A DNA stretch of 64,000 bases from Antedon mediterranea. Its lineage: Eukaryota; Echinodermata; Crinoidea; Comatulida; Antedonidae. Of the stretch, positions 14,268 to 62,475 are shown one piece after another. The position numbers and the translations under genes are program-made. How positions within the stretch are numbered: the stretch's first letter is position 1; each line of letters opens with the position of its first letter. Below the pieces are notes generated by a model. It did not search any database. It was not told the DNA's origin and was given only the letters and a program-made list of their open reading frames with translations. The stretch covers positions 17,373,312 to 17,437,311 of the forward strand of contig NC_092675.1 in assembly GCF_964355755.1 (NCBI RefSeq). Reading direction: 5' to 3'.

Positions 14268-15924
<1,657 letters not shown>

Positions 15925-25698: not shown

Positions 25699-28600
25699 AT
25701 GTGGATGTTTGGTGAATTGTTGACATTGATTGTTTTTCTTCAACTGGGCTATGCTCAACTTGAACCATTAACTTTAAATGTACCGAAGAAAACATTCGTA
25801 GTTGAAGCTAATGATGAATCGTACGTAGAATATCTTATCGATGTAATAGATGAACTTTTATTATCAAACCCTAATGACGAGGGGAAGTATGTCTTGCAAT
25901 CGTTTTCAGAGTATGGTATGTACATGTGATAGTTATTTACTTCTGTATGTAATTACTACGGTAGGTTAAATTTTCTAACGTACACTTTTAATTGTTTAAC
26001 CATCAGACAATCCCAACCCACTCACTTCAAATAGTAAAATTGCAAACTATACTGTGGGCTGACATGACAAGTTTATATCCCAATAATTGTAGTTACAAAG
26101 ATAATATTTTTCTGTTTCAAAGGTTTATTTATTGTGTGTAGTTCCCAAATCTTCTTTTTGAAAGTAGGCCTAAATCATAGTGCATTCAGATAAGCAAATA
26201 AAAAAATAATTGCTACTGACTCATAAATATTACATTCACTTGAATAATATTATTTTTCTTTTCTTATTTGGGCAAGAATTGTGCATACAGGTAATATGAA
26301 AATAGTTTTTTTTTTATAGAAATGACTAGGCCTATATGATGTTATCTATGAGTAGAACATAAAATAATCTCGCTGCGATAACTAATTTTTCGGCACAGTT
26401 TGGTGCGTAATCGTGCCGTAAAGGTGAACATGAAATAGGCCTATGGCAAGCTATCAGTAGCAATAGATCATTAATAGTCCTGGGGAGAAGAATCTCACCT
26501 TAGCGGTGTCGTTTGATAAGAAATTTACCTGTAAAAGTTAATTTTACGTCGAAGAACCTTGACCCGATGTTGTCAAATTGATGGAAACTGAAAGGTAGTT
26601 TGGTTGTCACAGGCCTGTGTTCGACACGTGCGTGCTACACGTAGGCTTATGACGCAAGATTCAGAGTTACCGCTCATTTAACGTAGACATACTCGTTAAC
26701 AACCATTGGTATAGGCTTATTCTGCTGAGGAATGACCCATTGTTTATATAATTTAAATGTTTTTGTATTCCATAAATATGACAAAAGCTAATGAAAACAA
26801 TCTGAAATGTTTTGATAGCAAGTAATGAACACGTTGAGATAAAAATTAATCATTTAAATTTTGCGATTTTATGGGTGAGATCTCTGTTGGGGTTTTTCTC
26901 TCTAAAGACCGTAATTGAATTGTTAACAGATATGACCTTTTCCAGCAAACACTAATCCAGGACAGATTTGTCTAATAATGATAATTTTAATATCTATATT
27001 GGGGACGTATTATTGATATGTGTTCAATAAACAAGCTAATTTTACTAAGAATGCATTTATAAGGAAATCACAGGGTAAATTAAACATTTGAAGCTGAATT
27101 GAATTTCTGAAAGAAAAACAATAATAAACTATTTAAATTTTACGTGCTAAAAGTAATTTTTCCAAATTACATTTAATTGAGTAAACGTTATTATATGTTT
27201 GATGGGTGGGATATTTTCAGTTGACTAATCTCGACAAGTGGTATCAAGAGTGTTGTGGTTCGTGCTTTTTGTAATATAATTATATTGACAATTACAATGA
27301 ATGTACACAAATTTAGAAGACCGAATGAAATTGCATAATTATATACCGTTTGGATAGGTTGATTCTTAATATCTACACTTATGCTCAGAACACAAAACCG
27401 AACTGTAATCGAGTCACGATACAGAAGAAAGTGAAGTGAAGAACTTGTGCCAAATGCTGCAGCAGCAAATCGAATTATTGAGTGAATGTAGTATGGTGGT
27501 ACTACTGTATGATGATAACAACTTGGTATGAATGTTGAAAGCCATTTTCCAGCAAAGTTATTTCTACTTTATTACTCAGTTTATTAATTTCCATTTTATT
27601 TCACAAAACATTATTGCAAAGTTATATTTACAAAACACAACTATATTATTCTCTTTAAGTCATTAAATATATTGATTGTGAATCTAACATGAATAACGAT
27701 TAATTGTTAGGCTACTGGGTGGTATGATCTGTCTTGGTCACTACGAACATTAGTACTTCCATCAGGCTTCCCGCTGACGTTGTTGTTATTCTTCATATTC
27801 TTAGTGATCTAGCCTGTGGTAATTATTTTCTTTGAAAATGTTTTTGAGAGATGGTATGGAAGTACCCAGGCCCCCGTTTGTATTATTTAAGTTTATTTCT
27901 TATTTCAACATTGAATTCAGCTTCAATTTGTTCTAAATCGTTTTGTAAGTTCAGGTTACACGTGTTTAAATTTATCTTATATTAATCTAACATTTATTAT
28001 CAACTTAATTAAACTTTAGTTAGTGCTTTTAAAAGGCTGTAACAACGAACACACACGCGTACCTATGGGAATAAAGCATTTGTAACATGGTTTTGTCAAG
28101 ACCAATTAAATTCATTCCCAATTAAGTAAAATTACTTTGTTTGTGGTAATGAAAACCAGAAGGAGATTACAACATCAGCACCTGATAAGTCAGGGTATCG
28201 TTAACCGATAGCTTCCAATTTGAATTGGTGAAATTAACCTAGTAACTTTTGATTTATCCCGTGATTACTAAATTAAAATCTTTAATAATTTCGTCGGGTA
28301 CATGTGTACTTTATTACTTACTGCAGGTGCTCTATTGTTGAGTTTTAATCGTTGATTTTCTAAATCTGTCCATCCGTTTTTGTACAGTTGTGTAATGTTG
28401 TTGAAACTTCTTGTTGGTTTCTCCAATTTTTGTCGTCTATAATACACAATCCATTTTTAATATGTCATGAACTCGTCTTGCTTTTGTACACTGATATATT
28501 ATACTGAAAGTTTACAAGGTATTTTAAAGGTATGTCAACTTTGACCTTTAAATATTATTTCTAACATAGGAGATACCTTAGGGTAAGGAAAAAGGATCAC

Positions 28601-31600
28601 ATTCTTTGAAAATAATCGTGTAACTTAGAAACACAAGATCGAAGGTGAATACAAATAATTAGAACTAATATAGGCATATTCTGAATATTTAGAAATTAAT
28701 TATAAAAGCTAAACTTATGCAAAGAATAAAAATTGTTTTGTTGTTTTAAGAATTAACTTGATTTATAAAGTGCATCAAGTTCAGGTGATCAATTAACTTT
28801 AGGTTCGATTAGGAACGGGGTTCTAAAGGAACATCACGTCTATTGCTCCTAGCATACATTCCAAACCAATCAAATTATGGAAAAATGTATGGCTACAAAA
28901 TATATTTACTGTGTAATTGTTCTAATATCTGTCTAATGTCATGGGATTATGTCAAAAAACATTTAATTTCAACCCACTGAGTTTATTAATGAATTATTCC
29001 AATGATATCATATTTCTTTCAACTATTCTTAGACATGTTTGTTTTCACAACCTTAAGTCCATAAAAAACAATTTGGTATTAAAACAGTAAAATCATATTC
29101 TAAGGATAATATTACTTTAAAACAAGTTGCAATATGCTAATGAATATTCTTATATTTCAAATTAAATTACGGAAATGCTTTTATTCGCTACGATTTTGGT
29201 CAATTTAGCTCTATAGGTGTTATATTACGTTACATTACCATTAGTATGAAACACATTCTTTACATATTATGTACAAGTTAACATGGAAACATTGGATTAT
29301 GTATTGCAGAATAAAATCAAATCAGCAAATTAAATTGCAAACAAATTAACATGAGATAATTGAAGTGACAAATACGGCGTCGCAAACTGTGGAGATATTC
29401 TGCATTTCAGATTGGTTAGCATTTAATTTTGCTTAAACCAAACCAAAAGGTACAGCAAATTATAATAACTAAATAAGAAAATTTAATATAGATATTTAAA
29501 ATGTAAATATTAATTATAATAATTATATCGAATTATTTAATACTTTTTTCTCTTTTACATAAACTTGTAGCAAGCTTTATAGCCCTATATCAATTTAGCT
29601 ATAGGCCTATTTTTAGGCCTAATTATCTGGCCATTTGATACAATTTGATAATAAAACAATCAAGGTTTTAGGGCGTTAATATTACATTCGAAAGAATTGT
29701 TTAAACCCACAGCTGGAAAGATTACACGTGTTTGTAATCGCAATGCAATCCTAGTAAGTATCTTAAATACAGTTGAAATTGTTTAATTTTTAAAACTTTT
29801 TATTCCAAAATGTGTTTTTATACGAATAAGATATTTTTATAGAATGCACGATAATTATTTTAAATTTTGTATATATTGAAAAAGATAAAATACAGATATT
29901 TGCAACTAATAGGTAGGCCTATGTTCAGTCATTGGCATAATCTTTGAATTGGTAACATTCCTGGAATTTTCCTGAGATTTGACGTAATTAATATGCTTAT
30001 GATGTATGTCTTGCGAAGTTGTTGTTTGTTCATGTTAAGAAGAAAAATAACTGCATATTATAACTCCATGGGAACACTTAGGAACTATTTTTACTGTATT
30101 AACATAATTCAAATCTGTAACAGAATCCCATTAATTGTAATTATCTTACAAATGGTATTCGAAATGATAAAGTAATAAAATGGTGTTTTTGTATGTTGAT
30201 TATGTTAATTATGGTGTCATAAAATGTGCGTATAAACGTTTGAATGTAGTTTGAGTGTATCATTTTTTTTGTAGTCAGCATTAACCGGACGTGCTGTGAT
30301 TTTATCGAAATACCCAGTACCCCATTTACCTGGATCATTACCAAGTTGCGTTGGTGAAAACCAACAGCGGTAAAAGATGATTGACACTTTTGCAAAAGTT
30401 TTGCGTACAACTTTATGGCGCCGAAGCGAACTTTACCTTTGGTACCGTAGCTTGAAGGAGGAAGTAGTAGGCATGCGTATAAACTCAATATACAGAGTTT
30501 CGTTTCTGTACTGGTTTTGTCAATTTGATTGTCATCTTTCACCACCCTCCTGACACAAGCTCGCTAATATTTGTAAGGGAATTTGACGTTAGCTAGCATA
30601 TTTTTGCGTCAAATCATTAATAGTTCAGTGACATGATTTAATAAATTACATTTATAATGTTGATAACATCACATTTATTTGTTGTCTTTTACTTCATGTT
30701 TTTATAGGAAATGTGAAATAAATAAACATAATTCTCTAACCAAACTAAATTTCAATAGCATGCCGCAACTTATTAAACGTGAATTTGATTATCGGGAAAT
30801 CATTTTTCTATGTTATATGATTCAAGATAACATATCTTAGATTAGTCGATGCTGTTCTGAACAATGTTTGATACCATTCTGTTGTGATTCCTTGCAACAG
30901 GTTCCACGTGATTAATTAAAAAAACAAGACACAAAGACATGATTTAACATTATTTTAACACCATGACCTACTTCAGATGTATTATAGATAACATTATTGG
31001 ATTGGTGTAGGCCTTCTGGAGAGTAACATCTGAACACTGAGAAAACATAGGCTTGGCATGTGTCTCAAATAAAACATCCAGATCTATTCATAGTGCATAG
31101 CTGGGTTCATTTCCGAATATCGTATTCAACAGTTTTGTAATTTTTTGTAATGGGATTAATATATATAATAAGATATTTCCCCGACGGCAGTTCAGATAAT
31201 CTTTGACAGGGTTAAAATACGCCAACATACCGCTTCATCAAAATTTTATACATAAACAAAACTATAACAATATAGAAAATATCTGTTTAAACAACTGCTC
31301 ATTTTTTTCTATGTTAATTTCTTACTGTAATTACCATAATTTTAATTTTTGTTTACAGCAAACTGTATTAAACCTTTCCCAATAGTTATTTTAATATACG
31401 AAAATCGTGTAAATCACAAATTAACAGCTATTTTGATGAACTTCGAGTTTTACAACAAGCGTTCAAACGCGCCATTGATGGCAGAGAAGGCGGCTCATTC
31501 CAAATCTTTATATTATTAGGTACAAAGCGTATTGTACTTTTAATGACATTATTTCGTTCATATTTCTAGATGTTCCAATCCCGATTGAATCAAACAGCTT

Positions 31601-32118
31601 AATTGAAATTCAAGAATCGGTAAGATCTCTAGATGTTTACGACAATCAGAATTGCTCAACACGTGGCATCAAATCTCTGCCGCTGTACAGTGCCCTCAAC
31701 AGTTCTGCTTCAAATTCACTTGTGGTCGTTGTTACCGGAACAGGTGTTGAATCAGATGGAACTTTTATTCCTGAATTATTTGATATTATTCAGAAGAAAC
31801 AGCTTAGGGTAAGTTTAAAAATCTTAACTAATCAATCAATTGAAAGATAATCATACCCAGTCGGTATAAAGTTAACAAAATCAGTTTGCAAGTTGAACTG
31901 TTTTAATTGATATTCTAAAAAAGTTTTAACATTTTAGTAACTAAGCAAATGTTTCTTTCCTTTTGAACATATCTTACTTAAGTTTTAATTTGTAGGTTAT
32001 CTTTGTTGTATCCGATGAATGTTCTGATGGATACCGCAATGGACGTCAGTTAATAGACGAGGTCAAAGAAGTTAGTTCAGGGGTCATATTTCCATTGGAA
32101 ACTCAAAACATTAGCCAG
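25699..32118 (+). CDS. Exons 1-3: signal peptide and degenerate hemicentin-type VWA domain
   Basis: Exon 1 starts MWMFGELLTLIVFLQLGYA, a signal peptide with likely cleavage after residue 19. Residues about 31-193 follow the hemicentin VWA: strand 1 (KTFVVEAN), the SFSEYDVPIPIES segment, an SLVVVVTGTG strand, and KKQLRVIFVVSDECSDGYRNG, which closely matches hemicentin QKQSQVVFVLTGDCDD. The metal-binding DxSxS/DxTGS motif is replaced by E36-A-N-D-E-S. The later Asp (hemicentin FTDA) is replaced by VTGTG. Intron 1 is 5.65 kb. Exon 1 ends in phase 1 and joins exon 2 in frame. Confidence 0.8.
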
Positions 32119-33025
32119 GTTGGAAGCTTCACTTTGTATTTTGTACAACTATATTTTTTTTTTCTCTTTTGTGGCGTGAAAAACCACCTTTATTCTTTCA
32201 TATCATAATTAAATACATTACAAATAAATCAGTAATATCTGTCTTCATATGTTCTTTCTTTAATTATATTGTTTTCTCCTTTTTTCCCCTTAATTTCTTA
32301 CATTTTTCTTTGTATTATTCTGCTCAAAAACAACTATATTTGTTTTTTCAATAATGTAAAAATAAATATCTAAATACTAAATGCTGTTCAGTAAATTTGA
32401 GAATAGATTATTACGGATTATTCTTAAGAGTAAGTTTTTAACTAATATAGGATGTAAAATATCTGTATTTTTCATGTTAATATCGGAATATTATTTTCAA
32501 TAACAGATTATTCGATTCATTCAAATTTTTGATTACGGGGATGACGTCAGTCTTCTATCTCCTACGCTATCGACACCAGGAGTTAGTGCCTACCAATTAT
32601 ACGTTGATGAATCAATTGAACAACTAATAGTGATTTTATCAGGCCTTGAACCAATCATATCAATCTCAGACGTCGACGGTAAGTTTATAATATACATTAC
32701 AGTATAATTTATATACAAAATCACATTATTTTATTCCATATTATGTTAAGACAGTTTAATGTTTGACGTTGTGATTGAAAATAAAAGAGGAATGACACTT
32801 TATTGAGCAGTTATACAATTGAGTCTGAAGTTGTACGTTTACGTTTTGCTGTTTACTTTTAGGTTGTTTACTTTTTATGTTTTTTACTTTTGATGTTTTT
32901 TACTTTTGATTTTATTCTGCTTGTATTTTATATAATGTATTACCTTCTGTTTTGAAAGAATGTACCAATATTAACTCGTTTAAATTTAATTTTAAAAAAA
33001 ACATTTTATCGTAATTGTTTAATTG

Positions 33026-33058
<33 letters not shown>

Positions 33059-36000
33059 GACAATTATTTTTTTATATAATAGTTTTAAATTTAAATGTAT
33101 ATATTAGATTCGTATTAGTTAAGTATAGTTTTATATATTTTGTCATTTTTAAGAGGGCCCCTGAATATCAGCTGGCCTGCGGGTTCAGCTGGAAGGGTTA
33201 CCCTCTATAAATAAAGTTGAAATAAAAAAATAAAAAAAATTTGACGTTTTTAACTTATTAGCGTTTGCTTATTGCATCTCAATTGAAATCAAACAGCTTT
33301 GGTTTTACCTGTTTTTCGATGCATGTAAATAAATATATGTTTCTATGGGATGTAGCAAATCATTATGTTATTAATATATATTTTTAATACGATTCGTTAT
33401 ATTTTATAATTCAATAGGTAAGAAGCTTGAAGCGGAACAGGACTTTGAGTACATCGTTGCTTCCAACAAACTACAGATCATTGTTCTTGAGAACGTTTTT
33501 CCAACTGAATATACACTCAGTGTATTTAGCTCTACTGATAACTTGGTTCAAGTCATTGGATTTGCACCTAGCCCTATTGATATTAGGTTTATGTTTTACT
33601 ATGAGAAGACCATCAATATGACACAGGCATCGGAAAGGCCGTACACAACAGAAGGTAACTTTCTTGCACCAATTACAGGAAAGAAATACATTCTACAAAC
33701 AATTAATAATTGTAACAGTCAATATTTAGTTTATTGTTATACTAATTTTCCAATTAAAGTGAATTATTACGAAGGCGACTAAAAGTTTTATTCATATTTA
33801 TATTCATTAAATAATTTTAATGATTTTTCAACTGACATATATTACTCTTTATTAATTGTGTTTGAAACTATACATTAAACATGCACGTAGTGGTGCAATA
33901 TTTAGTATATCAACATCTCTCTAATGCTTGCATAATATTAATTTTAAGATGTGTTCATATAAAAAAAGATGAACCAACGTTGTATGTCTAAATTTCTATT
34001 TGTTTAAATAATCTCTCTCTTTATTTGTAGGTTCACAAAATGTCATTCTGATGCAAGTTGAAAACACTGAAACTAATGTATGGCACTCCCATGATATTAT
34101 TCAGAAGGTAGAATTTATTTCTTTGGTTGGTGAAGTTCTGCGAAATATTTACATGGACTCATCAAATTTTGTAAAAGAAGAAAACGCAGACCACGCTCAT
34201 TATGTTATGCAAATACGGCCACCAGATGATCATTTCTACATTACGGTACGAGGAGTTAATAAGAATCAACCGTTTCAGAGGTCATCTAAAGTGGCTTTCT
34301 CTCAATGGAGACCAGGTATGATTACATTTTGTATAATTATATCATCATCACAACAAATACTGGTGTAAAGTTAAAAGCACCAATGGCAGGCACAGGCCTA
34401 CACGGAAGATGGGTCTGATTAAGGGTACAGTCGGGCACCATCCAGGGCTTGACAGGGGCCAAACCTCTTCAAAATTGAGGCATCCTTAAAATAATGTCCT
34501 ATACCATGCGTACAATTATAGTAGCTTAAATAATAAGAGGAACAATCCACTACTAGTACTAGACAACAGTGTATATGAAAACATATTTCTCTTGAGTTGG
34601 TCTATAACATTCACTTTCAATCCTTATATATAGGCCTACTGTATACAGATTATGTTGTATATATAGTTGAATTGTTTTGACATGTTGACCTACGTCGACT
34701 TTTTTTTGTAATTGTTATTTTCTATATCATGTTTTTTTTTGTTTTTTTTTTGTATATTTCTCTTGGATGCACCTTCCATTTGGTCGAGTGCCACTGTTGT
34801 AAAAGTGTAATCTCCAAATAAATAATTATTATTATTACCAACAATTTAGTAACGTGAAATAACTGTCAATTTAATACATTATTGAAATGGTTCGTAAATT
34901 GTAATTTTAATTATATTTATTTGGCTCACAAGTTCCGAGCAGACCATCGAGTTTTATCGTATTTGAAGCTGAGGACTGTGATTACGAGGCAATTTGGTAC
35001 GAACCAGTACACACTTTTACCAAATCTTTGATTGCATATCAGTTTTCGTTTGGATTGGACACAGATACACCTATTGAGTTTCTACTACCATCAAATGTAA
35101 CGTCATATCGAGTTAACGAATTGGGTTGGTATTTTATTTATATCTAAGTAATTTATAAAATGTATTTCATATTAGTGATTTATGTTGAAATTAATATGTT
35201 GAGTTAATGTCAAGGCTGTTTTAATCACGGCGCAATCATTGCAATTATTTTATTTTGGTAAAGTATAAGTTTAATTAATTTTGTGAATAAATATTTAATT
35301 TCCATCAATGCTTCAGCGAAAGGTTTGACATACGTGTTTACCGTCGCCGCTGTCAACGAAGCTGGCGTAGGAGAATCACTTTCTGTCACCGTCATAACGC
35401 CTTCTGACAGTAAGTATATATTAACACGGTGTATTAACACACTATGTAATAATACAATACATAACTAATAAAATAATGTGCCATACAATATCTATTGTTT
35501 AAATGAACTATTTTTTAACGAAATTATGTTACAAACATTTGTTACAACTGTATATTGAAAAGAATAAATGTTGTTGTCATAATCAAAATTGAATATACTA
35601 ATATAATAATAGAGCGATTTCGATTTGCGACGAACGTACCTAGGATCTGCGCATGTTATGTCGTTGGTCGTCCTCAGGACCAACTCCACCGAAACCAATG
35701 TCACCACATTCCCACAGTAAATTAACATCACGTAATTAGTTCCTAAGCCCTAGATCATGGAAAATCCATCTTTATGTGACAAAAAATGTGATGTGCCCAT
35801 ATATGCCATATCTGCATGTATCACTACTACCATATTTGGCCACATCACACTTTTTTTTATCAAACTATTTTGATAGTGTAGACAGAGCTTTACACTTTTT
35901 TAAATATCATAAATTGTTCTTATTTTCAGGACCAATTGCACCACCAACAAACATCCATGCCATTCAGGCCACCGATTCGCTTATAGAGATCTCGTGGCAA

Positions 36001-42000: not shown

Positions 42001-42501
42001 TTTTAGTTGTATGAAAAAATGTCTCTGGCTGGATTCGAACCTGCAACCTCTCGCTTACAGGGCGAGTATCATACCACTAGACCACAGAGCCATGTATGGT
42101 ATTATCACAGATTTTCACCCACCAGATACATTCTCTCATACAACAAACGCCCTCACAATCAGTGGAGGCTTGACAAGTCAGAATAAATTCCAACTTTAAT
42201 TCGCAACGGTTTTTTAAATAATATTGTGTATATGTAAATCAATGATGTTGCGTAGCACTGTGTAAATTATATATAAATCATACTGTAAATTATAGAAACA
42301 GTGCTCATATTCGGAACATGATCTCATAATCGCGTCGAGCATAGCTCATTGGCGAAAGTTCCGTATTTTTTAGTTGTATGAAAAAATGTCTCTGGCTGGA
42401 TTCGAACCTGCAACCTCTCGCTTACAGGGCGAGTATCATACCACTAGACCACAGAGCCATGTATGGTATTATCACAGATTTTCACCCACAAAATGACAAT
42501 G

Positions 42502-42543
<42 letters not shown>

Positions 42544-45500
42544 CATTGTCATTTTTTTCAGTAATTTGCCTTTGGATTTATATATATATATATAAATTCC
42601 AAACCGCCCGGTGATACACTGAAAATTATTTAATTAATTTTTGAAACGATAAAGATGAGGAAATCTGTGAAAATGAGAAAAAGTCGCCCCAACCGAGACT
42701 GTGTACCTAGTGGAATACTGTTTCACGGCTTAAATACCAAACTTCTACTTAGCTAAATTGACAATTCTTTTATTGTTTTTTTTTTAAAATATATTTTCAG
42801 GAGTTGCAAAAATTGATGATATTCAGGTTATTATTAAGTCATCAACAGAGGCACTTGTAGTTTGGACAAAACCAAATTACATTGCATCTGGCGCAACATA
42901 CGTTGTCCGGTTTTATAATGAAGTTAATCGCGGATTAAAATATCATTTCTCCACAACCAGAACAGAGACTTACTACAGGCAACTATTGCCTAATTCAGCA
43001 TACACGTTCAGAGTGAAGATGCAAAGAGACGATAGATCGAGCGTGTTTAGCAAACCAATCATGGTGAAAACACCGCCGTTGGGTAAGTTTGATACCGTAA
43101 AGTAAATCATGAAATATCGTTTAACAAATGTAAACAATATTGTTTACTATTTATTTACTCTTTGGTGATCTTACAGAACCCACTACAATATCACCTAAGG
43201 ATTCTACGTCCTCGCCCAGTATTGATTCCACAACTTTATTTGTCAATGACAAAATAGTAGTTGGTGTTACCAATGCAGATACCGGAGAGGGGATTCAATT
43301 TACTACTGGAAGTCTGGAAGAATTTCAATTCAGTACGGCCACCAAAGATGAAAAAAGTCAGTCATTGCTAGTAACTACTGCTCCCGAATTCGTTCATGAA
43401 GACCTAGAACCATTGACAACTGCAGTTCCTGAACCAAAGGCAACTGCAGCTCCTGAACCAATGGTAACTGCAGCTCCAGAACCAATGGTAACTGATGATC
43501 CGGAACCAATGACAGCTGTATTTCCTGAACCAATGGCAACTGCAACTCATGGACAAGTGGTAACGGATGACCATGAACCAATGGCAACAGCAGCCCCTGA
43601 ACCAATGGCAACTAAAGTTCCTGACACAGTGGTAACTGATGATAACGAACCAATGGTAACTGCAGCTCGTGAACCAATATCAACTTCAGCTCCTAAACCA
43701 ATATCAACTGCAGTCCCAGAACCAGAAATGGAACTAATGGTAACGGATGAAAAATCCATTGCAAACGCATCTCCAGAACTAGTTATTGACGATACTGATT
43801 ACACTACCACTAATATCCCTAAAGGTACAGAAGAACCAGAAAAGGCAAATGCAATGGAGTCAACAACATCATCAATCATGATAACTGATACGAAAAACAG
43901 TCCACTGAATACTAATCCTCCAGAAGACACAACATCTACGGATCCGGTTGCAAGTCAAGTTGACGAAAATGAGGAATCTCAAACATCTGGGTACTAATTA
44001 TTTTGCTGATTTATTTAAAAGACTTTAATTATAATACCAATGTTTAGGTATAGAAAATATTCTTTATTTTACTATAAAATTATAAGAGTGGTGTTCTAAC
44101 TTGGGCAAAGTTTTTCTGTTAAATTATATAATATATATGTTTTATAATTACTATACATTCCAATCATGCCATCAGTTTCATTTTATCTAAGTATAATCGA
44201 AAACAAAAACATTTCTCATAGAATATTACACTGTACCCATATTACTATCAATATGTATACTATTTATTATAGACCGATCGCTAACGACGGCACGTATCTG
44301 CGGTTAATAAGACCTTTGCCAGACGTCATTGCATTTGTCGATGATCGCTTGAATCTACGATGCACCGTAGATGCTAACCCATCAGCTACATTACTGTGGC
44401 ACAAAGATGGAAATCCGTTGAACATAGGAGGTGACAAGATTAAGGAAAGAAAGTATTTAAAAGGGTCAATACTCACGTTTAAGGAAATTAAAATGTCGGA
44501 TGCAGGCAGATACACTTGCATTGCTCTCAACCATGGCAATGTTGTAGAAACATCTGGAAATATTACTGTTATTCCAAGTAAGTGCATTGTATTATGTAAT
44601 TATAATGTAACCTAACGTCTGGTGTTTTAGATCATTATATTGTGTTAGGAAGTGAGACGACGAGCTTCAAAGTTATTCGCGGAAAGGACAACAATTAGAA
44701 GTACCGTATATTGATAACTTATTATGTGGGTTGTCTGTACATTTTTCTGGTGTAATATATTAGCACATGTAATAATTGCTGCAAAAAAAAGAAAAAAGAA
44801 ATAGTTATCAATTCAAAACATTTCCATATTCTAAAACTTAGACATATTTTTTTGACGTTTTTAGAGGGTAGAATAACACAGAAGCCAGTCGTTGAAAACA
44901 GTCACACAGTAATGAAGCGATCAGTCAGGCCTGGAAGTAATAAGGATGTCGATCCATCATCATCGTACGCATCGTCATACACTACTCATCTGCCGTCATT
45001 AGTGGAGGAAGTGTTCATTACACCTGATGCAGAAACTCCAAAGGTTACAAGAGTATCGCAACATGATCCACAGATGCAGAAGCCTGATGGGAGTGTTGTG
45101 GTACGAGTTACTGGAATTGAACCAGAAGAGGTATTTCAAGACGCGAAAACTGACAGACTTGGGAATCTCAATGCTCGACCATCTCAAACATGGGATTCTA
45201 GTCGTAGGTGAGTCAACTTGCTTTCTTACCTCCGTTATGTAGTCGATTGTGTGTGTTTGTTTCGTTTATATTTGTTAGTTAGCAGAATTACTCAAAAAGG
45301 TATTGCTCGATTTTCATAAGATTTTAAAGGATGGTTTCATAGCTGTATGGGAACACATCATTCATTTTTCACATGCCTATGTGGAGGTTTGCCATTATCT
45401 GTACATTTCGATGGTAGAATAACTATTTTAATTATTATAGAATAGAAATAATAAAGTATACACATTTTTGATGACTTTGTTTTTGTATACAGTGGCGAGC

Positions 45501-48500
45501 CGTATGTAGAAATTAAAAAATACATGGAGGAACAGAGTGTTGAGGTTGGCGACAGGGTAGTGTTCCTTTGCCGAATCATTGGCGAACCTAAACCTAGGTT
45601 TTTGTGGTATAAAGATGGGGCACCATTAGTCTTTGATGATAGTCGAATGAAGGAGAGAGTTTTGGACACCGGGTCACGTTTTACCATCAAACAAGCGCTT
45701 TTGCGTGATGCAGGAATCTACACTTGTTATGGTCTTAACGATTATCAAACGGTGTCCATGCGAGCCACTCTAGAAGTCTTCAATCCATGTGAGTTAATAA
45801 ACTGTTGATAGTTTGTTCTTTTTGTTACTTGTATGTAGTTTATTACTAAATTCCTTGTAGAGGTGTATTATACGTTCTGTATCAAAGATACACTAGCAAG
45901 GGTTGCCCGACGACGATTTATAAGCAATTGATTTTTTTTTCAATTCAATTCAATTTATTTTCCACATACTATACAACTACTACAACCTAGTACATGGAGG
46001 ATGCATATTTTAAGATCTGTGCAGAACACATAGATCTTTAAGCTAATAAGCAACCTTAGACAATAATAATAATTACAATAAAAATAAAAGCATTGAATAA
46101 ATAAGTAAGTAAGTAAATAAATAAATAAATAAATAAGTAAGGCAGTATACAAAAAAAGAAATTATTCCATGTTTCATATAATTATATTGTATGATATATA
46201 ATAAATAATAAATAAGTAGAGTGGTATTTACTCACCATATATTTTCGTTTTTAGACGTAAATCCATACCAGCAGCCATCTACTACACCCACAAGAACAAA
46301 ACCGAATACTAAACCAAGAACAAAGCCACCGGCAAAAACAACACTTCCAATCACCTACAAACCAACCGACCCATTTACAACCCAAGTAACAAACTCGTAA
46401 GTTAATGACGTAATCAATCAAATGATAACATCTGTAATAAAATCAATGGTCATGTATAACAATGGCGATAACATGGACACACATAAAACCATGATTAATG
46501 ATGTTAACAATAATAATCGTCACATTTTTTTTATTAGTGAATAGACACCATCATCTTTGTAGGAAGTAATGATTATATATTAGATATTAGATTATGCTAT
46601 ATTACCTTCAAACGAGTAATTTCTCAATAATATTATATCTAATGTCTAAATTGTTTGTAAAAATTTAAATTACAGTTACACTAAGAAACATGATTGTATT
46701 GGAGAAATCTCAAAACTTTGCATGTCAAACGAGTTAGTTGGAAAGAAGGTTGATATAGATGATCGTATCTCGCTTCGGTGTCAAATATATGGAGATCCTC
46801 AACCTGAATATCGATGGTATAAAAACGGAATAAGAATTTACCCAACAAAACTTGGATTGATAAGAGAAAAGGCATTTCCTTGGGGTTCTCGCTTAGCTTT
46901 TAGAGGCGTGAGAGAGGCTGATACTGGTGAATATCGATGTCAGGCGATCAATGCAGCTGGTATTAAAGAAACAAAGGCTTGGCTGCTTGTCGGACCTTGT
47001 GAGTATTTCTTTTTCTGTTTATGTTTGTTATTAAAAGAGTACAACATTTACAACTTTCTATCCTGTTTGAATCTTTATTGGATCCGGTATAGGCCAACTC
47101 AGACAGCATCGTACGTCGAGGCCCGACCAATCGTTTTGACTCGTCCGCCGGTACTGTCTGAGATGATTCCGACGAGAGTCGAGAGTCGAGTCGTCTTGCG
47201 ATAGCGTCGAGCGTAGTTTTTAGACTCGTCGGGCCTCGTCGTACGACACTGTCTCTGAGTTGGCCTTAAGTTGTTTTGTTATTCAGACCGATTGTAAAGA
47301 CTAAATAATATATTTTTTCTATTTTAGATGCAACAATTCCTCCACAAATAGAAACAGAAGCACCAACCACAACTGTTGAAGCATACAGACCTACGACGAC
47401 CCAAACAAAACCCAAGCCTCCAAAGAAGACACCAAGGCCAACAGCCCCACGGCCACCAAAAAAGACAACACAACGCGTTGATCCTACAGATGTCTTCTTG
47501 CCAACAAGTACATCCAGACCAAGCGTCCAGTAAGCAGAATTGTTTGACGTTTTTTTCACAATATATATATAGCGTCGACGTTTACAAACTATGTCCCTTG
47601 GACTTTCTCTGCTCTTTTCATACATAGTAATTTGTATAGACAATTAGATTAAAATTATAATTTTATAGTACCGTAAAATATATACTGCTTCTGAAGATTT
47701 TGATCAGCTACTTAAGTCATTCTATATTTCCTATTTAGAAAATGCATTTCTGGTGACAACGGTGAATTATGTTATGCTAGCATGCCACATCAAGTCGGAG
47801 TAACTGGTGGATCCGTCGTTTTCCAATGCAGAATGAGCGGTACACCAGAACCTCAGTTTATCTGGTTCAAGAATGGAGTTCTTATTTTCATGGACGAGGA
47901 AGCTGGAGAAGATGATATGCAACGCATTCGTATTAAACAGATGTCGTGGGGGTCTCGTCTTGTTATCAAAGATATTGTACACGAAGATGCCGGTACATAC
48001 CTCTGCGTTGGCGCAGTTGTAGACATATCAGAAATTGTACAAGCTGAATTAAGTGTGGTAGAAGGTTCTCAATCCAGTAAGTCTTCCACATAGCATAGCA
48101 TAGACAACTGATACACTGTAGGCCTACATAATAACCTGTTTTTCTATTCTTAGAACCACCGCCAAAGAAAAAGCCTAACAAGAATAAGCCACCGAAAACT
48201 CCAAATACACCAAAGCCAAAGCCTCAACGGCCTAGAACACCAACAACGGGAGAAGACACTACTCCTCCCGTTTACAGACCTAGACCTGAAACTGGAAACA
48301 ATGGCGGGCAACCGGAAGGAAGGTATATCAATTCATTTCAACGTGCAGTCTCTTTGTCTTTCTCCGTTTACGTTAGTCTAACTATTTACTTCCACCAAAT
48401 AATAGCATCATAACTTGCCTAAAAATTAACGAAACAACTGTTTTCACAGCCCGGATGGTGGAAGATGTGTGGTATACACTGGCTCTGTGTGTCGTCGTTA

Positions 48501-51500
48501 CCTAAAATCTCAGATGGTTTATGTTGACGGCGGTTCAGACCTGTATTCAATTGATTACCAGCTTCAGGCTACTTTACAAACACTTTCAGCAACTGATTTA
48601 CAATGCATGAGCTACCTCGAGCCATTCCTCTGTTTCAAAGCCTTTCCCCTCTGCGACGATAGCGGTAAAAGTAAAAGCATATGTCAGGAGGATTGCTCTG
48701 TACTCACAAGAAGCTATTGTCGTGACCTAACTGATCTGAAAGTCGCATATCCTGGACAATATCTGTGGATGCCTGCATACGATGACTGCAGTACTTTACC
48801 ATCAGTGAACGTAGACAGCCAATGCATAACAGTGGGACTAACGAATTGTACGTATATATAACATAATTGTTCCTTCTATAACTGAAAATTCTCAATGTAT
48901 TAATGTTGTTTAACCTTAGTTTTATTGATGTAATGTTACTGAATTTTAATATTTGTATTGATTGTTTGTGGGGTTTAATTGATATACAATATGTCAATCA
49001 ATTGTTCATTAAATATTTATCTAGCACTATAAATACTCGACAATGCAGTATTAATTCTACATAAGAAAATTCAGTAGTCATTCTGTAGTTCTTATTTTTT
49101 TAAATAAACCAACCCATTACACTAAATATTTTAAGATAAAAAACAAAAACGCTTAACATAATTATTTTTATGTTATATAGTATATCCACATACATTTAGC
49201 CTACTTCTCGTTAATCAGGCATTATTCGGCCTAAACTGTAAACGAATAATGACAGCTTAATGGAGTAATTAATATGTTCAACATCCACATAAATAAATCA
49301 ACTTATAATCAATAACAATGTTCATTTCTTTTAGCCAACACCAATCGGTCTCCAACTGCGGGGTAAGCTTTCCATTTATTCTAATTTTGATTGAATAATC
49401 AGTTTTTATACACCTAAACTAAACTACTCTAAATTCCTGTTTATTTCATCGAACGATTTTGGGTCACATGGCGTGCCATAGTACGCACTATTTAATGGTC
49501 GTTAAATAGTAGTTTCTGAATACTTACTGAATATGAATATAGGAAATTGAATATTATTTGTTCATTTTATCAACATTCTTTGCAGTGCTTTTGTCATTAA
49601 TCTGACATAAAGAGCTATTTAACTGGAACTTGATTAAATAATAGAACTCTTTACTAATATTAATAGGAAATGGCTTATATAACAAAGAACCAACATAGTA
49701 TTTTATTTCAATGAATAAATGATTGCCTGTACTAGGCCTATAGTTCGGCAGATGAAACTGTATATGTGTTCATTTTATATTTAGGTCTAAACCTGCCGGC
49801 AAATGCAGACCTTATAATTCTGACGGGATTTGCAGCGAATATGTTGGAAACAGGAACACGTTCATCAAATCCGGATTAACGTTAGCTAAAATCGAAACTA
49901 ATGTTATGTCTATATTCACGGCAGTCCTTACCCTAGGCTCAGTGAGCAGACAGTGTTCCAACTACCTCCTTCCATATATCTGTCTGAGGGCTCTTCCACC
50001 CTGCAACCGCAACGACAGGCCATTGGAGGTATGCCGCGAGGATTGTGAGGTCCTCTCGAATAATATTTGCTACGAAGAATTCAGAGCTACCCTGGCTACG
50101 GATGAACTAGATAATAGTGTATTCAAGCTAAATGACTGTCTGTCTCTGCCGTCTCAATCTGGCAAATACAGCTGCACCACTCTTAGTATATCAAGCGAAT
50201 TTAGAGGTAAGCGTCATCACTTCCTAATACTGTGAAACTTATGTACAATAGATTATATTTAACTTAAGCAGGTGAAAACCAATGTTGTATATCGTCATCA
50301 TCGTCTAATAGGTATTTACAACAAAAGTATGTTCTATTTTTGTAGCAACCGAAACTGATGTTGTTTTTCCTACAAGGTAATGCACACTTTATTATTTTCG
50401 TACCCATAATAATGCAATATAAATTTATTTGTGTATTTCTTTTTTAAAAAAACACCCAACACTGCATGAATTTAGTCGCACATTTTCGTTAAAAGTGTAA
50501 ATTTTATCAATGTTATTTTGTTATTATGTTTTTTTACCATGTATATTGTATCAGTATGTCCCTTTGGCCAAATTATATGCATAATAATCAAATATCACTT
50601 TATTTATAATTAAAGGCCTGCCTCCAATGATAAGAAAAGTATTCCTACAGGTTTCATTATGTTTATTTTGGTTTATAATGTCAATAATTAGTTGAAACGT
50701 ACAAAACATAGACAACGTGTCAATGATAATGCTCACTTATAAATTTGGACAATTTTGGATAGTCCACAGCCTACAAGAAATTGTGAGGCCTACAAAGGAA
50801 CAGTGTGTTCTAAGTACCTGTCTGGACGCAAAATCTACCTTAACAGCGGACAAAAACAGTCGGAAATTGAAAATGAGATTATTAAAATCAAGGAATTGCT
50901 AGACACTGAAATGGACTCGAATTGTGGTGGTTACCTCTTCAAGGAGATATGCCTTACAATGTTGCCAGTTTGCAATAGCCGGGCAAAGAAACGCGAGATT
51001 TGCCGAGAGGAATGCTCACAACTCCATAACGAATATTGTTATAATGATTATCAAACATTACAAGTATTGTTACGTGGCCGTGACGATGTCTTGACTGACT
51101 GTTCAACTTTGCCCTGGACTTCAGATATACGGGGCCCGACCTGTATTGAGCTCGGTGTTTCGTCATTACCCGAGGGTGAGTCTTCACCCCAGAAAAACAT
51201 GTACTATATATTATTATATATATTAAATACAAAGGCTGTTTGTTAATTATTTTACATATCTGTACTACTTACTTTTAATGTTACTTACTTTAATACTTTT
51301 ATTTTGTATGTTGACTGCATGTTCACTAATTTAGTAGAATGAAAAAGGCTACGTATAGTGCGCTTAACATTGGTAGATGAAATGCATGTAATAGTATATA
51401 TCCTTTAATATTTTTCCCTTTTAATTACGGTTTTTGAATTTAATTAGCTTATTATCATAATGTATCAGTTTTAATCTGTTTTATATTATGGTAATATTAG

Positions 51501-52118
51501 TTTTTATGTAGGCATGTATGTAAACGCTAACCAATTTTAAAGATTTTATTATATTTTTATATATAGGATTACATTTGATATAGGCCTAGAAGATTATCCT
51601 ACTATTATTTCCATATACCCTATCTTATTACCGTGCCGTTTTCATGCTAAAGTTAGTGCATATAAGTATTCATAATTATACTGCTATAAAGCGAAGATAT
51701 ACTACAGATTAGCACCTGCATCATCATTGTTTAATCCATTTTATCAGGGAAGAGTGAATTTACAATTGTAATTTCACTCTTCCCTGATGGCACTACCGAT
51801 ACGAAAGAAAATCAACAATAACGATGTATTGGTTTAACATTTTCAGTGGCTCCGCAAGTAGAAGTAGAGCTTGAAATGGATTCAAGTGCAAGACAAACGT
51901 CAACAGTTACTCTAAGATGTCGTGTGACTGGATCCCCACCTCCGACAATCGAATGGTCAAAAGACGGCGAGATACTACAGAGTACTAATAATATTTCATT
52001 AGATAGGAATAAAGTTCGCATTCAAGTTACGAGTGAACGAGAAGAAGGGACCTACACATGTACAGCGAAAAATTCAGCCGGAATAGACAAACAGAATATG
52101 CTCATTAATTTAGTATAG
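25699..52118 (+). CDS. Giant secreted hemicentin/ROR-like mosaic protein (VWA-FN3-Ig-Frizzled)
   Basis: Thirty coding exons, assembled by eye from GT-AG sites with every phase consistent, give 2,981 residues. Exons: 25699-25915, 31570-31808, 31996-32118, 32507-32678, 33418-33654, 34031-34315, 34933-35124, 35317-35409, 35930-36220, 36440-36887, 38523-38845, 39268-39555, 39809-40766, 40867-41168, 42801-43082, 43177-43990, 44273-44577, 44865-45207, 45493-45788, 46255-46396, 46676-46998, 47328-47529, 47739-48076, 48154-48322, 48450-48847, 49335-49362, 49785-50206, 50346-50376, 50763-51175, 51847-52118. Order: signal peptide (1-19), VWA without MIDAS, hemicentin-specific domain, FN3 x2, then three FN3/Ig units and three Ig units with linkers, three ROR-type Frizzled domains, final Ig, stop. 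There is no transmembrane segment, kringle or kinase, so an extracellular matrix or soluble Wnt-binding role is inferred. Weakest junctions: acceptor of exon 7, donor of exon 7 (GTTGGT), acceptor of exon 29. Confidence 0.85.
25916..31569 (+). other. Intron 1, no embedded gene recognised
   Basis: AT-rich. Holds several TAGGCCTA-type octamers (about 26166, 26327, 26437, 29603, 29615, 29914). A slightly GC-richer island at 30280-30560 has a 134-codon minus-strand frame that I could not relate to any family. No further exon is needed to keep the reading frame. Confidence 0.5.
32507..34315 (+). CDS. Exons 4-6: hemicentin-specific domain after the VWA
   Basis: Residues about 194-424. The sequence parallels the hemicentin region after the VWA: LLSPTLSTPG then QLYVDESIEQLIVILSGLEP (hemicentin has LSTDH, then PFDPSLKEVTVSLSGPSP), a GFAPSPIDIRFMFYY block (hemicentin GLSTIDFRAGFSR), and an FYITVRGVNKNQPFQRSSKV block (hemicentin FFLKVTGYDKDDYLFQRVSSV). 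This makes the N-terminus hemicentin-derived rather than a generic VWA. Confidence 0.8.
33130..33240 (+). mobile_element. Possible LINE 3' tail in intron 4
   Basis: A GGGCCCCTGAATATCAGC to GGTTACCCTCTATAAATAAA segment ends in (ATAAA)-like repeats, a typical non-LTR 3' end. A T-run lies upstream (33030-33057). No reverse transcriptase is attached here. Confidence 0.4.
34933..36220 (+). CDS. Exons 7-9: fibronectin type III domains 1 and 2
   Basis: FN3-1 is split over exons 7 and 8 (residues about 425-519; core Trp in AIWYEPV, and the closing TYVFTVAAVNEAGVGESLS pattern). FN3-2 is a single 291-base phase 1-1 exon (about 520-616; PPTNIHAIQATDSLIEISW, then NSEYGFQISAHTIMGQGPFS). The donor of exon 7 is the weak GTTGGT, chosen because it alone keeps frame with exon 8. 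Confidence 0.8.
35765..35893. mobile_element. MITE-like element, family A copy 3, left end lost, in intron 8
   Basis: Shares the body and the right terminal repeat GATAGTGTAGACAGAGCTT with the copies at 1391 and 5038. The left terminal repeat is not recognisable. It lies about 40 bases before the FN3-2 acceptor. Confidence 0.55.
36440..38845 (+). CDS. Exons 10-11: Ser/Thr/Glu linker and Ig domain 1
   Basis: Exon 10 (448 bases, residues about 617-765) is rich in Ser, Thr, Asp, Glu and Gln with several N-glycosylation sequons and no fold. Exon 11 (323 bases, about 766-873) is an I-set Ig: VVFICRIKGSP, core W in YSWYLDD, then IRDLTLVDQGKYTCRGENGAG. Both cysteines and the DxGxYxC motif are present. 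Confidence 0.85.
37390..38290 (+). pseudogene. Decayed non-LTR (LINE) reverse transcriptase fragment in intron 10
   Basis: Frame pieces read SGVPKGSVLGPLLF..FINDF and FLLFADDVKLY, the RT motifs with the catalytic F-A-D-D, then after frameshifts a palm/thumb region and a C-terminal PLKFRRSVSDLMFLYKSVN typical of jockey/CR1-like elements. It is interrupted by stops and frameshifts, 5'-truncated, and in the same orientation as the host gene. Confidence 0.75.
39268..41168 (+). CDS. Exons 12-14: FN3 domain 3, acidic linker, Ig domain 2
   Basis: Exon 12 (288 bases, phase 1-1, residues about 874-969) is FN3: EVTIKWFPP, then NTEYVIRVRAVTSKGIGPYS. Exon 13 (958 bases, about 970-1288) is a 319-residue linker very rich in Glu, Asp and Thr, presumably disordered. 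Exon 14 (about 1289-1389) is Ig: ATLRCFVIGFPLPSYEWYHEG, GWGSRIIIKNI, DKGRYTCVAKN. The GSR-x-x-I-x-x pattern resembles the ROR Ig domain. Confidence 0.85.
41193..41525 (+). repeat. tRNA-derived repeat family 1, copy C (tRNA-like core 41330-41401), in intron 14
   Basis: Plus-strand copy with leader, tRNA-like core and tail as at 18063-18417. The core has GTGGTCTAATGGTTAGGGC (A box), anticodon loop ATATCAA and GAGTTCGAGTCTC (B box), and a T5 run starts four bases after it (GACTTTTTC). The anticodon reads ATC. Compared with copy A the first anticodon-stem pair is mismatched and one acceptor base differs (GCCCAAG). It ends in a short TA run. Confidence 0.75.
41565..41909 (+). repeat. tRNA-derived repeat family 1, copy D (tRNA-like core 41702-41773), with TA run
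   Basis: Nearly identical direct repeat of copy C, with only a few substitutions over about 320 bases, so a recent tandem duplication. The acceptor is the intact GCCCCAG/TTGGGGC. It ends in a TA run at 41885-41909 that joins directly to family 2. Confidence 0.75.
41908..42130 (-). repeat. tRNA-derived repeat family 2, copy 2 (tRNA-like core 42021-42091)
   Basis: Minus-strand copy. Core acceptor GGCTCTG pairs with CAGAGAC except one base, anticodon stem CTCGC/GCGAG surrounds CCTGTAA (anticodon position TGT), and the B box is GGTTCGAATCC. Base 33 is C, not U, so decoding is unlikely. A T6 run follows the core. The body recalls tRNA-Pro or tRNA-Thr. Confidence 0.7.
42276..42490 (-). repeat. tRNA-derived repeat family 2, copy 3 (tRNA-like core 42388-42458)
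   Basis: Practically identical to 41908-42130, including the core and the GGAACTTTCGCCAATGAGC tail, so the two are a recent duplication about 368 bases apart. It joins family C and a TA run at its far side. Confidence 0.7.
42483..42592. repeat. Palindrome built of family C ends around a TA run
   Basis: AAAATGACAATGCTG, a TA run (42504-42540), then the exact complement CAGCATTGTCATTTT, and onward to TTTGCCTTTGGATTTA and another TA run. The whole can fold as a long hairpin. Confidence 0.75.
42593..42705 (-). repeat. tRNA-derived repeat family 1, 3' tail only
   Basis: Contains CCGCCCGGTGATACACTGAA, AAACGATAAAGATGAGGAAA and GTCGCCCCAACCGAGACT, then stops abruptly inside the T arm of the tRNA-like core, about 95 bases before the next exon. 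Confidence 0.65.
42801..44577 (+). CDS. Exons 15-17: FN3 domain 4, PEPM-repeat linker, Ig domain 3
   Basis: Exon 15 (282 bases, phase 1-1, residues about 1390-1483) is FN3 (EALVVWTKPNY, then NSAYTFRVKMQRD). Exon 16 (814 bases, about 1484-1754) is a Thr/Pro/Glu-rich linker holding a run of 8-residue repeats of the type PEPMVTAA at 43405-43728, likely O-glycosylated and stalk-like. Exon 17 (about 1755-1856) is Ig: LNLRCTVDANPSATLLWHKDG, then SDAGRYTCIALNHG. Confidence 0.85.
44865..46396 (+). CDS. Exons 18-20: linker, Ig domain 4, linker
   Basis: Exon 18 (343 bases) is a Ser/Thr/Val-rich linker with a dibasic VMKRSVRPG that could be a protease site (inference). Exon 19 (296 bases, residues about 1971-2069) is Ig: VVFLCRIIGEPKPRFLWYKDG, TGSRFTIKQALLRDAGIYTCY. 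Exon 20 (142 bases) is a Pro/Thr/Lys linker. All linkers are phase 1-2 and the Ig exon is 2-1. Confidence 0.8.
45935..46145 (-). mobile_element. Possible retroelement 3' tail in intron 19
   Basis: On the minus strand the segment ends in AATAAATTGAATTGAATTGA and at the other side has an (AAAT)n run (about 46108-46138 on plus). This is the look of a truncated non-LTR element tail. There is no coding support. Confidence 0.35.
46676..48322 (+). CDS. Exons 21-24: Ig domains 5 and 6 with Pro/Lys/Thr linkers
   Basis: Exon 21 (323 bases, residues about 2117-2224) is Ig: ISLRCQIYGDPQPEYRWYKNG, WGSRLAFRGVREADTGEYRC. Exon 22 (202 bases) and exon 24 (169 bases) are Pro/Lys/Thr linkers (KPKPPKKTPRP and PPKKKPNKNKPPK types), basic in contrast to the acidic exon 13. 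Exon 23 (338 bases, about 2292-2404) is Ig: VVFQCRMSGTPEPQFIWFKNG, WGSRLVIKDIVHEDAGTYLC. Exons 21 and 23 each have an extra Cys pair before the domain (DCIGEISKLC, KCISGDNGELC). Confidence 0.85.
47091..47267. mobile_element. MITE-like inverted-repeat element in intron 21
   Basis: About 177 bases with terminal inverted repeats of roughly 35 bases: AGGCCAACTCAGA..CAGC at the left and the complement ending GAGTTGGCCTT at the right. It is GC-rich with many GTCGA and GAGTC words, unlike the surrounding intron. No coding. Confidence 0.75.
48450..51175 (+). CDS. Exons 25-29: three tandem ROR/MuSK-type Frizzled cysteine-rich domains
   Basis: Exon 25 (398 bases, residues about 2461-2593), exon 27 (422, about 2603-2743) and exon 29 (413, about 2754-2891) each encode one Fz domain: C-x-Y-x-(4)-C at the start, CSNYLLPYICLRALPPC (domain 2) like ROR1 CSQFAIPSLCHYAFPYC, then CREDCEVLSNNIC like ROR CRDECEILENVLC, and a late DCxxLP. 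The ten-cysteine pattern appears kept in each. Micro-exons 26 (28 bases, 49335-49362) and 28 (31 bases, 50346-50376) encode ten-residue spacers. Fz domains of this class bind Wnt ligands in ROR/MuSK; binding here is inference. Confidence 0.88.
51743..51788. repeat. Perfect hairpin just before the last acceptor
   Basis: ATCAGGGAAGAGTGAA and its exact complement TTCACTCTTCCCTGAT flank the self-complementary TTACAATTGTAA. It ends 58 bases before exon 30. Confidence 0.8.
51847..52118 (+). CDS. Exon 30: C-terminal Ig domain and stop
   Basis: 272 bases, residues about 2892-2981: VTLRCRVTGSPPPTIEWSKDG, then EEGTYTCTAKNSAG, and the frame ends LINLV-stop right after the last Ig strand. No hydrophobic anchor or GPI signal follows. 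This Ig exon enters in phase 1, unlike the other six, which enter in phase 2. Confidence 0.85.
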
Positions 52119-53200
52119 GATTAACAAATAATATTCAAAGGTTCTGTAAAAATAAGTAATGGATTTCTAACAAACTGTAAATTAATGTTTATCATGTATT
52201 ATAATTATTAGGCTAATGTTGATAGATTAAACATAGCGAAATATCATAAACGCATAATATAAGCGATATTAGAACTAAGATCTACTACAGAGAGGATGGT
52301 ACAGAGGGATATTCTTCCGATGTGCTACAGGACTTTTTCATATGTTATGAATTTTTCTGATTGTCAATGACTTGCAATAGTTAACCGGGTAGCTACTAGT
52401 AATACAGGTAGTATATACCTTTATCTTAAGATGCCTGTTGAGTCAATGTTGGTGACTTTTCCTACGAACAAATGCCCTGTCAGCCTAGCCTATACTATGT
52501 CCTGCTAATATTTAATTTGTAAGTGTTGCATTCGCATTTGGTACTCCTTTATCTTATTTTGTTCATCATTTATTTAATATTTCTCCCATACCGTTTCCTA
52601 AAGTAAAACTCATAGATAGGATCAATTTATAGGCTTCCAGTATCAAAACGTAGTAAATAAATAGAAACAACTGATGTATGTGTATGCTTAGTGGTTTAAC
52701 TGAGAACATCGTCTTTGACACAGTCATTACATCACAGAAGAAAATTATAACATTTGATATTAAATTATAACATAATAATGTTAGCTGCAATAAGATTATT
52801 AAACGAAGTTGAGCTGATTGGTGATAGTCATACCCACTTAATACGTGGAGTAGAACGTTTGAATATAACAATACCCTACTACACCAGATGCTAAAATATG
52901 GAATTAAATATAAAAGTAAATATTCTCCAACAAATCTTCATTTAAAGCTATATATTGATCTCATTTCTTTTCACAAAACTAAACTTTTTTTAAGTAAGAA
53001 AGGGCCACAATGTAAAACAGAGTTTCCTTTTCTGCTTGTGAAATCCTGTATAAATATGTTGTTATTTTTATAATAGTTAACTGAATCAGTGTAAACTAGT
53101 AAACAAAAAACGCTTTTCGGTCGTATACGCGAATTATCGCATTAGCAATAAAACTAACTGGGCATATTAGGCCTAATTAAGACGGTTGTAAAGATGAGTA
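52119..53200. other. Tail-to-tail intergenic region
   Basis: The 3' UTR of the plus-strand gene lies here; AATAAA at 52656-52661 is a candidate poly(A) signal. TTTATT at 52569-52574 could serve the minus-strand ankyrin gene. No other gene is seen. Confidence 0.4.
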
Positions 53201-55693: not shown

Positions 55694-55707
55694 CTTAAGC
55701 AATCGTT

Positions 55708-61999: not shown

Positions 62000-62475
62000 T
62001 TAGAGTTTTTGAAAACAAAGACCGATACCCAGGTTTCTTATTTGAGATTTTTTGAAACACAAACCTCAACAAAAACTTGTATCATTGAAAGATTGAACAA
62101 CAAAACTGTTTCAATATTTACATAGACCCAACAAAAACTTCTCAACATTAGGTCATATGTTTTTCGTGATTTTTCTAAAACAGAGACACCAAAACAAAAT
62201 CTCAATATTACATTACATATACTACTTTACCTATTTTTCTGATAAAAATCAAAACGCTAACTGGTGGACAACATAAGAAAGACAAATTAACAACAGACTG
62301 GGGGAAAGTCTAATATAAAACTGTGTAAAAGTCAAATATAAAACTGTGTGAAAGTAGTCTAATATAAAACTGTGTGAAAATATGTAAAAACCAAATTTGA
62401 AGAAAATGACACTTTTGTATTTCATTTCATATGTTTTTATGTGTACAATATACTGTTTATCTCATAATTACTATG
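62000..62475. repeat. Diverged direct repeat, copy 2
   Basis: Same block order as 60230-60860. It ends where the 22-bp minisatellite begins. The motif CTAATATAAAACTGTGTGAAA is locally duplicated in this copy only. Confidence 0.6.

Follow-up and report, generated by a model that had tools for sequence, protein, structure and literature searches.

The plus strand of the window (the whole stretch of 64,000 nucleotides analysed) carries, between 25,699 and 52,118, a run of open frames with obvious domains. A chain of 30 exons, built by a dynamic-programming exon finder and hand changes, encodes 2,981 residues over this interval without an internal stop (Table 1). The first-pass annotation had described one spliced protein of this length, exon number, position and strand, and the same product was reproduced after six hand changes. 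As judged from the sequence, the exon and domain anatomy of the protein as modelled is very probably correct. The possibility of a pseudogene was ruled out (0 internal stops in 2,981 codons).

The next gene, convergent with the one studied, was a single long open frame, 846 codons in length and encoding ankyrin repeats at its N-terminal end, on the minus strand (53204-55741). Another open frame, at 14824-15921 on the plus strand, ended in three C-terminal C2H2 zinc fingers and is one that we take to be KLF-like. The intron separating exon 14 from exon 15 contained two tandem pairs of tRNA-like elements (41192-42494). In the first pair the unit was 372 bases long (98% alike) and included tRNA-Asp-like parts; in the second it was 367 bases long (99% alike), with tRNA-Thr-like parts on the opposite strand. 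Both are probably tRNA-derived short interspersed repeats, locally duplicated. Reverse transcriptase fragments were found in the intron that separates exon 10 from exon 11 (37393-37692; 24.1 bits, below the cut-off of 29.6) and at 57995-59120 (45.9 bits, above the cut-off). Positions 62475-63451 held a minisatellite in which a unit of 22 bases was repeated about 45 times, with a higher-order period of 149 bases. Near the window start, repeat arrays spanned 14-213, 520-705 and 1572-1854; they comprised two arrays of 14-base repeats, the second of which was by eye the reverse complement of the first, and one array of 57-base repeats.

Table 1. Exons and domains of the predicted gene, with positions in the window and the evidence for each.
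Feature	Position	Strand	Evidence
Exon 1: start codon, signal-peptide-like N-terminus, first VWA strand	25699..25915	+	by eye; hydropathy
Exons 2-3: remainder of hemicentin-type VWA	31570..32118	+	Pfam VWA_4
Exons 4-6: hemicentin domain (GBD_Hemicentin) and segment after it	32507..34315	+	Pfam
Exons 7-9: FN3-1 (two exons), FN3-2	34933..36220	+	fn3 25.7 and 49.4 bits, cut-off 25
Exon 10: linker rich in Ser/Thr, acidic (net charge -22)	36440..36887	+	no family above cut-off
Exons 11-12: Ig1, FN3-3	38523..39555	+	I-set 53.9 bits, fn3 51.1 bits
Exon 13: acidic linker, 319 residues, net charge -63, cysteine-free	39809..40766	+	no Pfam match above cut-off
Exons 14-15: Ig2, FN3-4, intron with tRNA-like repeats between	40867..43082	+	Ig_3 53.0 bits, fn3 25.1 bits
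Exon 16: Thr/Pro/Glu-rich linker, 271 residues, 8-residue repeat, net charge -39	43177..43990	+	
Exons 17-24: Ig3, Ig4, Ig5, Ig6, linker after each	44273..48322	+	I-set, four stretches
Exon 25: Fz1, ten cysteines	48450..48847	+	Fz 45.2 bits, cut-off 32.1; ROR2 4e-10
Exon 26: short linker exon	49335..49362	+	exon finder
Exon 27: Fz2, ten cysteines	49785..50206	+	Fz 37.9 bits
Exon 28: short linker exon	50346..50376	+	exon finder
Exon 29: Fz3, ten cysteines	50763..51175	+	Fz 45.2 bits
Exon 30: Ig7 and stop codon TAG	51847..52118	+	I-set 62.2 bits

Exon chain and coding signal

The splice-aware finder was first run with generic splice-site weights on positions 25,000-53,000 only and yielded 29 exons encoding 2,754 residues, a chain regarded as a draft because the codon table was partly trained on the same frames. 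The hand changes moved the start to the ATG at 25,699, added an FN3 exon (34,933-35,124), extended the end of the Fz1 exon and the start of the Fz3 exon, and set the end of exon 16 at 43,990 and the start of exon 17 at 44,273. The last two boundaries were picked with the protein length and phase pattern of the first-pass annotation already known. All 29 introns of the final chain were GT-AG, with lengths from 77 to 5,654 bases, and phase 1 introns (18) outnumbered those of phase 2 (9) and phase 0 (2). By finder score, weak acceptors were found at 34,933 (-2.5) and 50,763 (-2.1), and weak donors at 43,990 (-2.2) as well as 48,847 and 35,124 (-0.6).

Independent codon training used two neighbouring genes only (1,180 codons). 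With this training, and with stops left unpenalised, the model frame scored 487.9 nats versus 140.0 and 161.3 nats in the other two frames. The codon score of exons 8, 9, 17 and 25 (4 of the 30) was not above that of the best other frame, so the case for these four rests on domain matches and the lack of stops. The best chain scored 422.5 on the plus strand and 36.5 on the minus strand; for 22 kb from the rest of the window the best chain scored 9.2, which is a soft control, as that stretch was also used for background training.

This independently trained best chain comprised 28 exons and started at 25,705. The hand-set boundaries of the Fz1 and Fz3 exons, and those between exons 16 and 17, were recovered unaided, at site thresholds that had been loosened after the hand changes. 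Exon 3 was skipped, the two FN3-1 exons were replaced by one 54-base exon and exon 23 was shortened, and these features (exon 3, the FN3-1 exons and the extent of exon 23) consequently rest on homology and inspection.

Head, repeat domains and linkers

The head of the protein matched VWA_4 and GBD_Hemicentin slightly above the Pfam cut-offs when scanned as separate pieces (28.2 and 30.5 bits, respectively, with a cut-off of 27 for each) and fell below them within a 617-residue piece (24.7 and 26.6 bits). These matches bear out the hemicentin-type head, made of a VWA and the hemicentin-specific domain, that had been claimed in the first-pass annotation. Pfam matched nothing in the final 117 residues of the head, and the head as such gave no match against NCBIfam or, up to E = 10, against solved structures. 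A region of hemicentin between the VWA and the repeats has been described (PMC3707829).

The metal-binding motif D-x-S/T-x-S was absent from residues 1-200, and the VWA_4 match left out the first 32 positions of the model. Other positions of the VWA metal site presumably are changed as well, when set against the hemicentin sequence. Judging from these residues, the head probably lacks metal-dependent binding.

The hydrophobic stretch of exon 1 displayed a mean hydropathy of 2.50 over 9 residues and 1.48 over 19 residues. By eye, the N-terminus resembles a signal peptide, and on this basis the product would be secreted. No 19-residue window of the product reached a mean hydropathy of 1.6, and neither a kinase, a kringle nor a membrane segment was found in the modelled product by Pfam and hydropathy. 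The stop codon sits in the exon right after the Fz3 exon. Beyond it, plus-strand open frames from 52,250 to about 53,690 had no Pfam match; the reverse-transcriptase frames from 57,995 to about 59,120 were also scanned. The lack of a membrane anchor and of a kinase, as first annotated, thus held for the product and for the downstream frames scanned, and a search of those frames for a downstream exon with a kinase or a membrane segment found none. Hydrophobic frames at 51,201-51,269 and 52,523-52,541 fell in AT-rich DNA and were judged non-exonic.

The Pfam scan that the first-pass annotation had proposed confirmed all of its domain counts (7 Ig, 4 FN3 and 3 Fz). Its description of the Ig domains as ROR-like was not supported. 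They were generic I-set domains, the Ig profile matching solved titin, Robo and DSCAM best. MuSK was among the matches listed for this profile (60 of 171), and ROR was not among them or among those listed for Ig5 alone (60 of 133), in a database (PDB) that may hold few ROR Ig domains. Two extra cysteines preceded the first Ig strand in Ig5 and Ig6 (exons 21 and 23; 46676-48076) and were absent from the other five Ig domains.

Cysteines were lacking in all nine linker exons. The repeat of exon 16 had a 24-base period and 13.2 copies. When linker exons 10, 13, 16 and 18 were each scanned alone with Pfam, exon 16 gave the sole match, to the repetitive Cornifin model, above its cut-off. The last three of the linkers that follow Ig3 to Ig6 were basic and Pro/Thr-rich.

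Class of the Fz domains

The three Fz domains were 25-32% identical and had ten invariant cysteines common to all. Against solved structures, their joint profile ranked human ROR2 first (1.1e-25), ahead of fly Ror2 (3.5e-13), MuSK (2.8e-6, 5e-6 and 3.5e-5) and Frizzled-3 (E = 1), with six rows in total up to E = 10. In the three-Fz query, the match to ROR2 (3.4e-16) was strongest over Fz2 and that to fly Ror2 (9.9e-10) over Fz3. Cysteine spacing was 7-8/37-40/8/6/9/3/7/20-22/11-13 versus 7/40/8/6/12/3/7/21/13 in human ROR2. The largest constant difference was located between C5 and C6 (9 here, 12 in ROR2), and the C8-C9 gap was 20-22 here, compared with 21 for ROR2 and 27 for fly Ror2. Assignment of the three Fz domains to the ROR class is well supported by these sequence comparisons, and the ranking upholds the earlier view of them as ROR/MuSK-type.

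In the CRD of ROR2, an extra helix covers the site that accommodates the Wnt lipid in Frizzled domains (PMC11219042). The same source describes the MuSK Fz as likewise devoid of a groove and fly Nrk as burying a fatty acid (PMC11219042). Compared with Frizzled CRDs, the ROR2 CRD is a weaker binder of WNT5A and presumably does without the lipid, yet it is needed for WNT5A signalling, for which it is alone minimally sufficient (PMC11219042).

The extra ROR2 helix would sit in the C8-C9 gap, and by analogy the three Fz domains described here probably lack a groove for the Wnt lipid. Loss of the groove was inferred from Fz class and cysteine spacing, because an AlphaFold model computed for Fz2 together with the two sister domains (mean pLDDT 44.7) was too poor to judge the groove. 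As fly Ror2 (Nrk) buries a fatty acid, a lipid of another kind may be bound. The first-pass proposal of several potential Wnt-binding sites is weakened by the groove-less state of ROR2/MuSK-type Fz domains, as described in PMC11219042.

Role, gene number and relation to known proteins

The observation reported at first, namely a hemicentin-like beginning joined to Ig and Fz modules, was confirmed, and its interpretation as a whole was partly supported. We propose that one gene encodes a secreted modular protein of the extracellular matrix, which would begin with a signal peptide, a VWA and a hemicentin domain. The head would be followed by FN3-FN3, an acidic linker, Ig-FN3, an acidic linker, Ig-FN3 and a repeat-rich linker. 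After these would come four linker-borne Ig domains, the three Fz domains of ROR type and, at the C-terminal end, one more Ig domain. The head and the Ig/FN3 array may place the protein in the matrix. There, the three probably groove-less Fz domains could engage ligands of the Wnt5 class, or else Frizzled or Ror partners, independently of the Wnt lipid, and the protein might thus tune signalling of the Ror type by acting locally as a scaffold or decoy.

A secreted matrix protein presenting ROR-type Fz domains to Wnt5/Ror partners is the best explanation as a whole, with a little less than even confidence. The signalling role is more tentative, and binding, place and role are all what we infer. 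It is somewhat doubtful that the protein is a lineage-specific one in which the Fz domain of a Ror kinase was turned into a three-copy, matrix-anchored module, giving a lipid-independent handle on Wnt5/Ror signalling.

A purely structural matrix protein, in which the Fz domains would be adhesive modules without signalling, as I-set and FN3 domains often are, is rather unlikely and still the strongest of the alternatives. It would fit the predominance of Ig or FN3 among the repeat domains (11 of 14), the missing metal motif of the VWA and the nearest Fz class being without a Wnt-lipid groove (PMC11219042). However, all three Fz domains, at only 25-32% identity, keep the ten cysteines and a near-ROR spacing, which suggests a kept binding function, and the finding that the ROR2 CRD alone is minimally sufficient for WNT5A signalling (PMC11219042) also argues against a purely structural role.

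One secreted product from one gene is likely. In an improbable alternative, the region would contain more than one gene, or a second promoter, and a product with the hemicentin, FN3 and Ig domains would have been joined in silico to a distinct Ig/Fz product. Chimeric gene predictions are a recognised hazard (PMC3927609), and the exon joins are here predicted from sequence. When a cost was set on gene breaks, a three-gene split was best at 5 nats (425.3), in favour of separate genes, but a single gene (423.5) was best at all six higher costs (8, 10, 12, 15, 20 and 30 nats). A multi-gene run with no meaningful break cost returned many tiny genes and was uninformative.

Exon phases argue for the single gene. 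From exon 10 on, linker exons ran from phase 1 to phase 2 in nine of nine cases, and Ig or Fz exons from phase 2 to phase 1 in nine of ten (Ig7 being the exception), so that a linker and a domain together make a symmetric unit. This rule is obeyed by the Fz part as by the Ig part, that is, in both halves of the putative split, which speaks for a single gene that expanded by duplicating exons.

The search for alternative hydrophobic starts bore on both sides. None was found at a 9-residue hydropathy limit of 2.6, a limit that exon 1 itself (2.50) does not reach, and the scan was repeated at 2.3 with exon 1 as positive control. With donor scores above -2.3, 12 hydrophobic start/donor pairs fitted the next exon, including 37,607-37,668 ahead of Ig1 and 46,498-46,565 ahead of Ig5, which speaks for separate products; with donor scores above 0, only four pairs did, and all of these begin inside Ig or Fz exons and cut the domain. 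The stretch at 46,498-46,565 is very hydrophobic, starts with an ATG and is in phase with the Ig5 exon through a weak donor. It is possibly an alternative first exon, or else a chance occurrence in AT-rich sequence, and a second, shorter Ig/Fz product from an alternative start is possible on these features.

Least probable is a mineral- or cation-binding matrix protein of skeleton or shell with the acidic, probably disordered linkers as its working parts, an idea suggested by the net charges of exon 13 (-63 over 319 residues) and exon 16 (-39 over 271) but opposed by the basic character of three later linkers and by the lack of a biomineral family match among the four linkers scanned (exons 10, 13, 16 and 18).

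Compared with known proteins, the single product modelled here is not a hemicentin, not a ROR and not a MuSK. Like hemicentin (HMCN1/2, him-4), it possesses an N-terminal VWA with a hemicentin domain and several I-set Ig domains. Hemicentin has tens of Ig domains that run directly after the head, whereas the seven found here are set apart by linkers or FN3, and FN3 domains come first; the presence of FN3 and Fz and the missing VWA metal motif are further differences. The C-terminus of echinoderm and vertebrate hemicentins is described as containing TSP1, G2F, EGF and a fibulin-type end (PMC10381214), none of which was reported by Pfam in the pieces scanned.

The ectodomain of ROR1/ROR2 (fly Ror, Nrk) is similar in Fz class, in cysteine spacing and in having Ig and Fz in one chain. 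It differs by its single Fz and by the kringle, membrane segment and kinase of the receptor, while three Fz domains and none of the rest were found here. The MuSK ectodomain also displays several Ig domains and then a related Fz (2.8e-6), which is a weaker match than that of ROR; MuSK has three Ig domains, one Fz, a membrane segment and a kinase, in contrast to the seven Ig and three Fz domains, with no anchor or kinase found, of the present protein.

Secreted proteins with Fz domains include sFRP, carboxypeptidase Z and collagen XVIII, in which Frizzled-type Fz domains are combined with other partner domains, and they are mostly thought of as Frizzled-type Wnt binders. The present protein would be like them in being secreted with Fz and unlike them in its ROR-type Fz domains and hemicentin head. 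No protein joining a hemicentin head with Fz was found in the open-access literature searched, and the architecture is probably genuine, with known modules in a new arrangement.

Should it be merely one of many domain combinations of invertebrates, its interest would be modest. If true, the arrangement would be a clear case of exon shuffling, with a matrix head joined to receptor modules. Three ROR-class Fz domains in a secreted protein without a kinase would also allow one to ask what the ROR class binds by itself, which the ROR2 structure does not answer.
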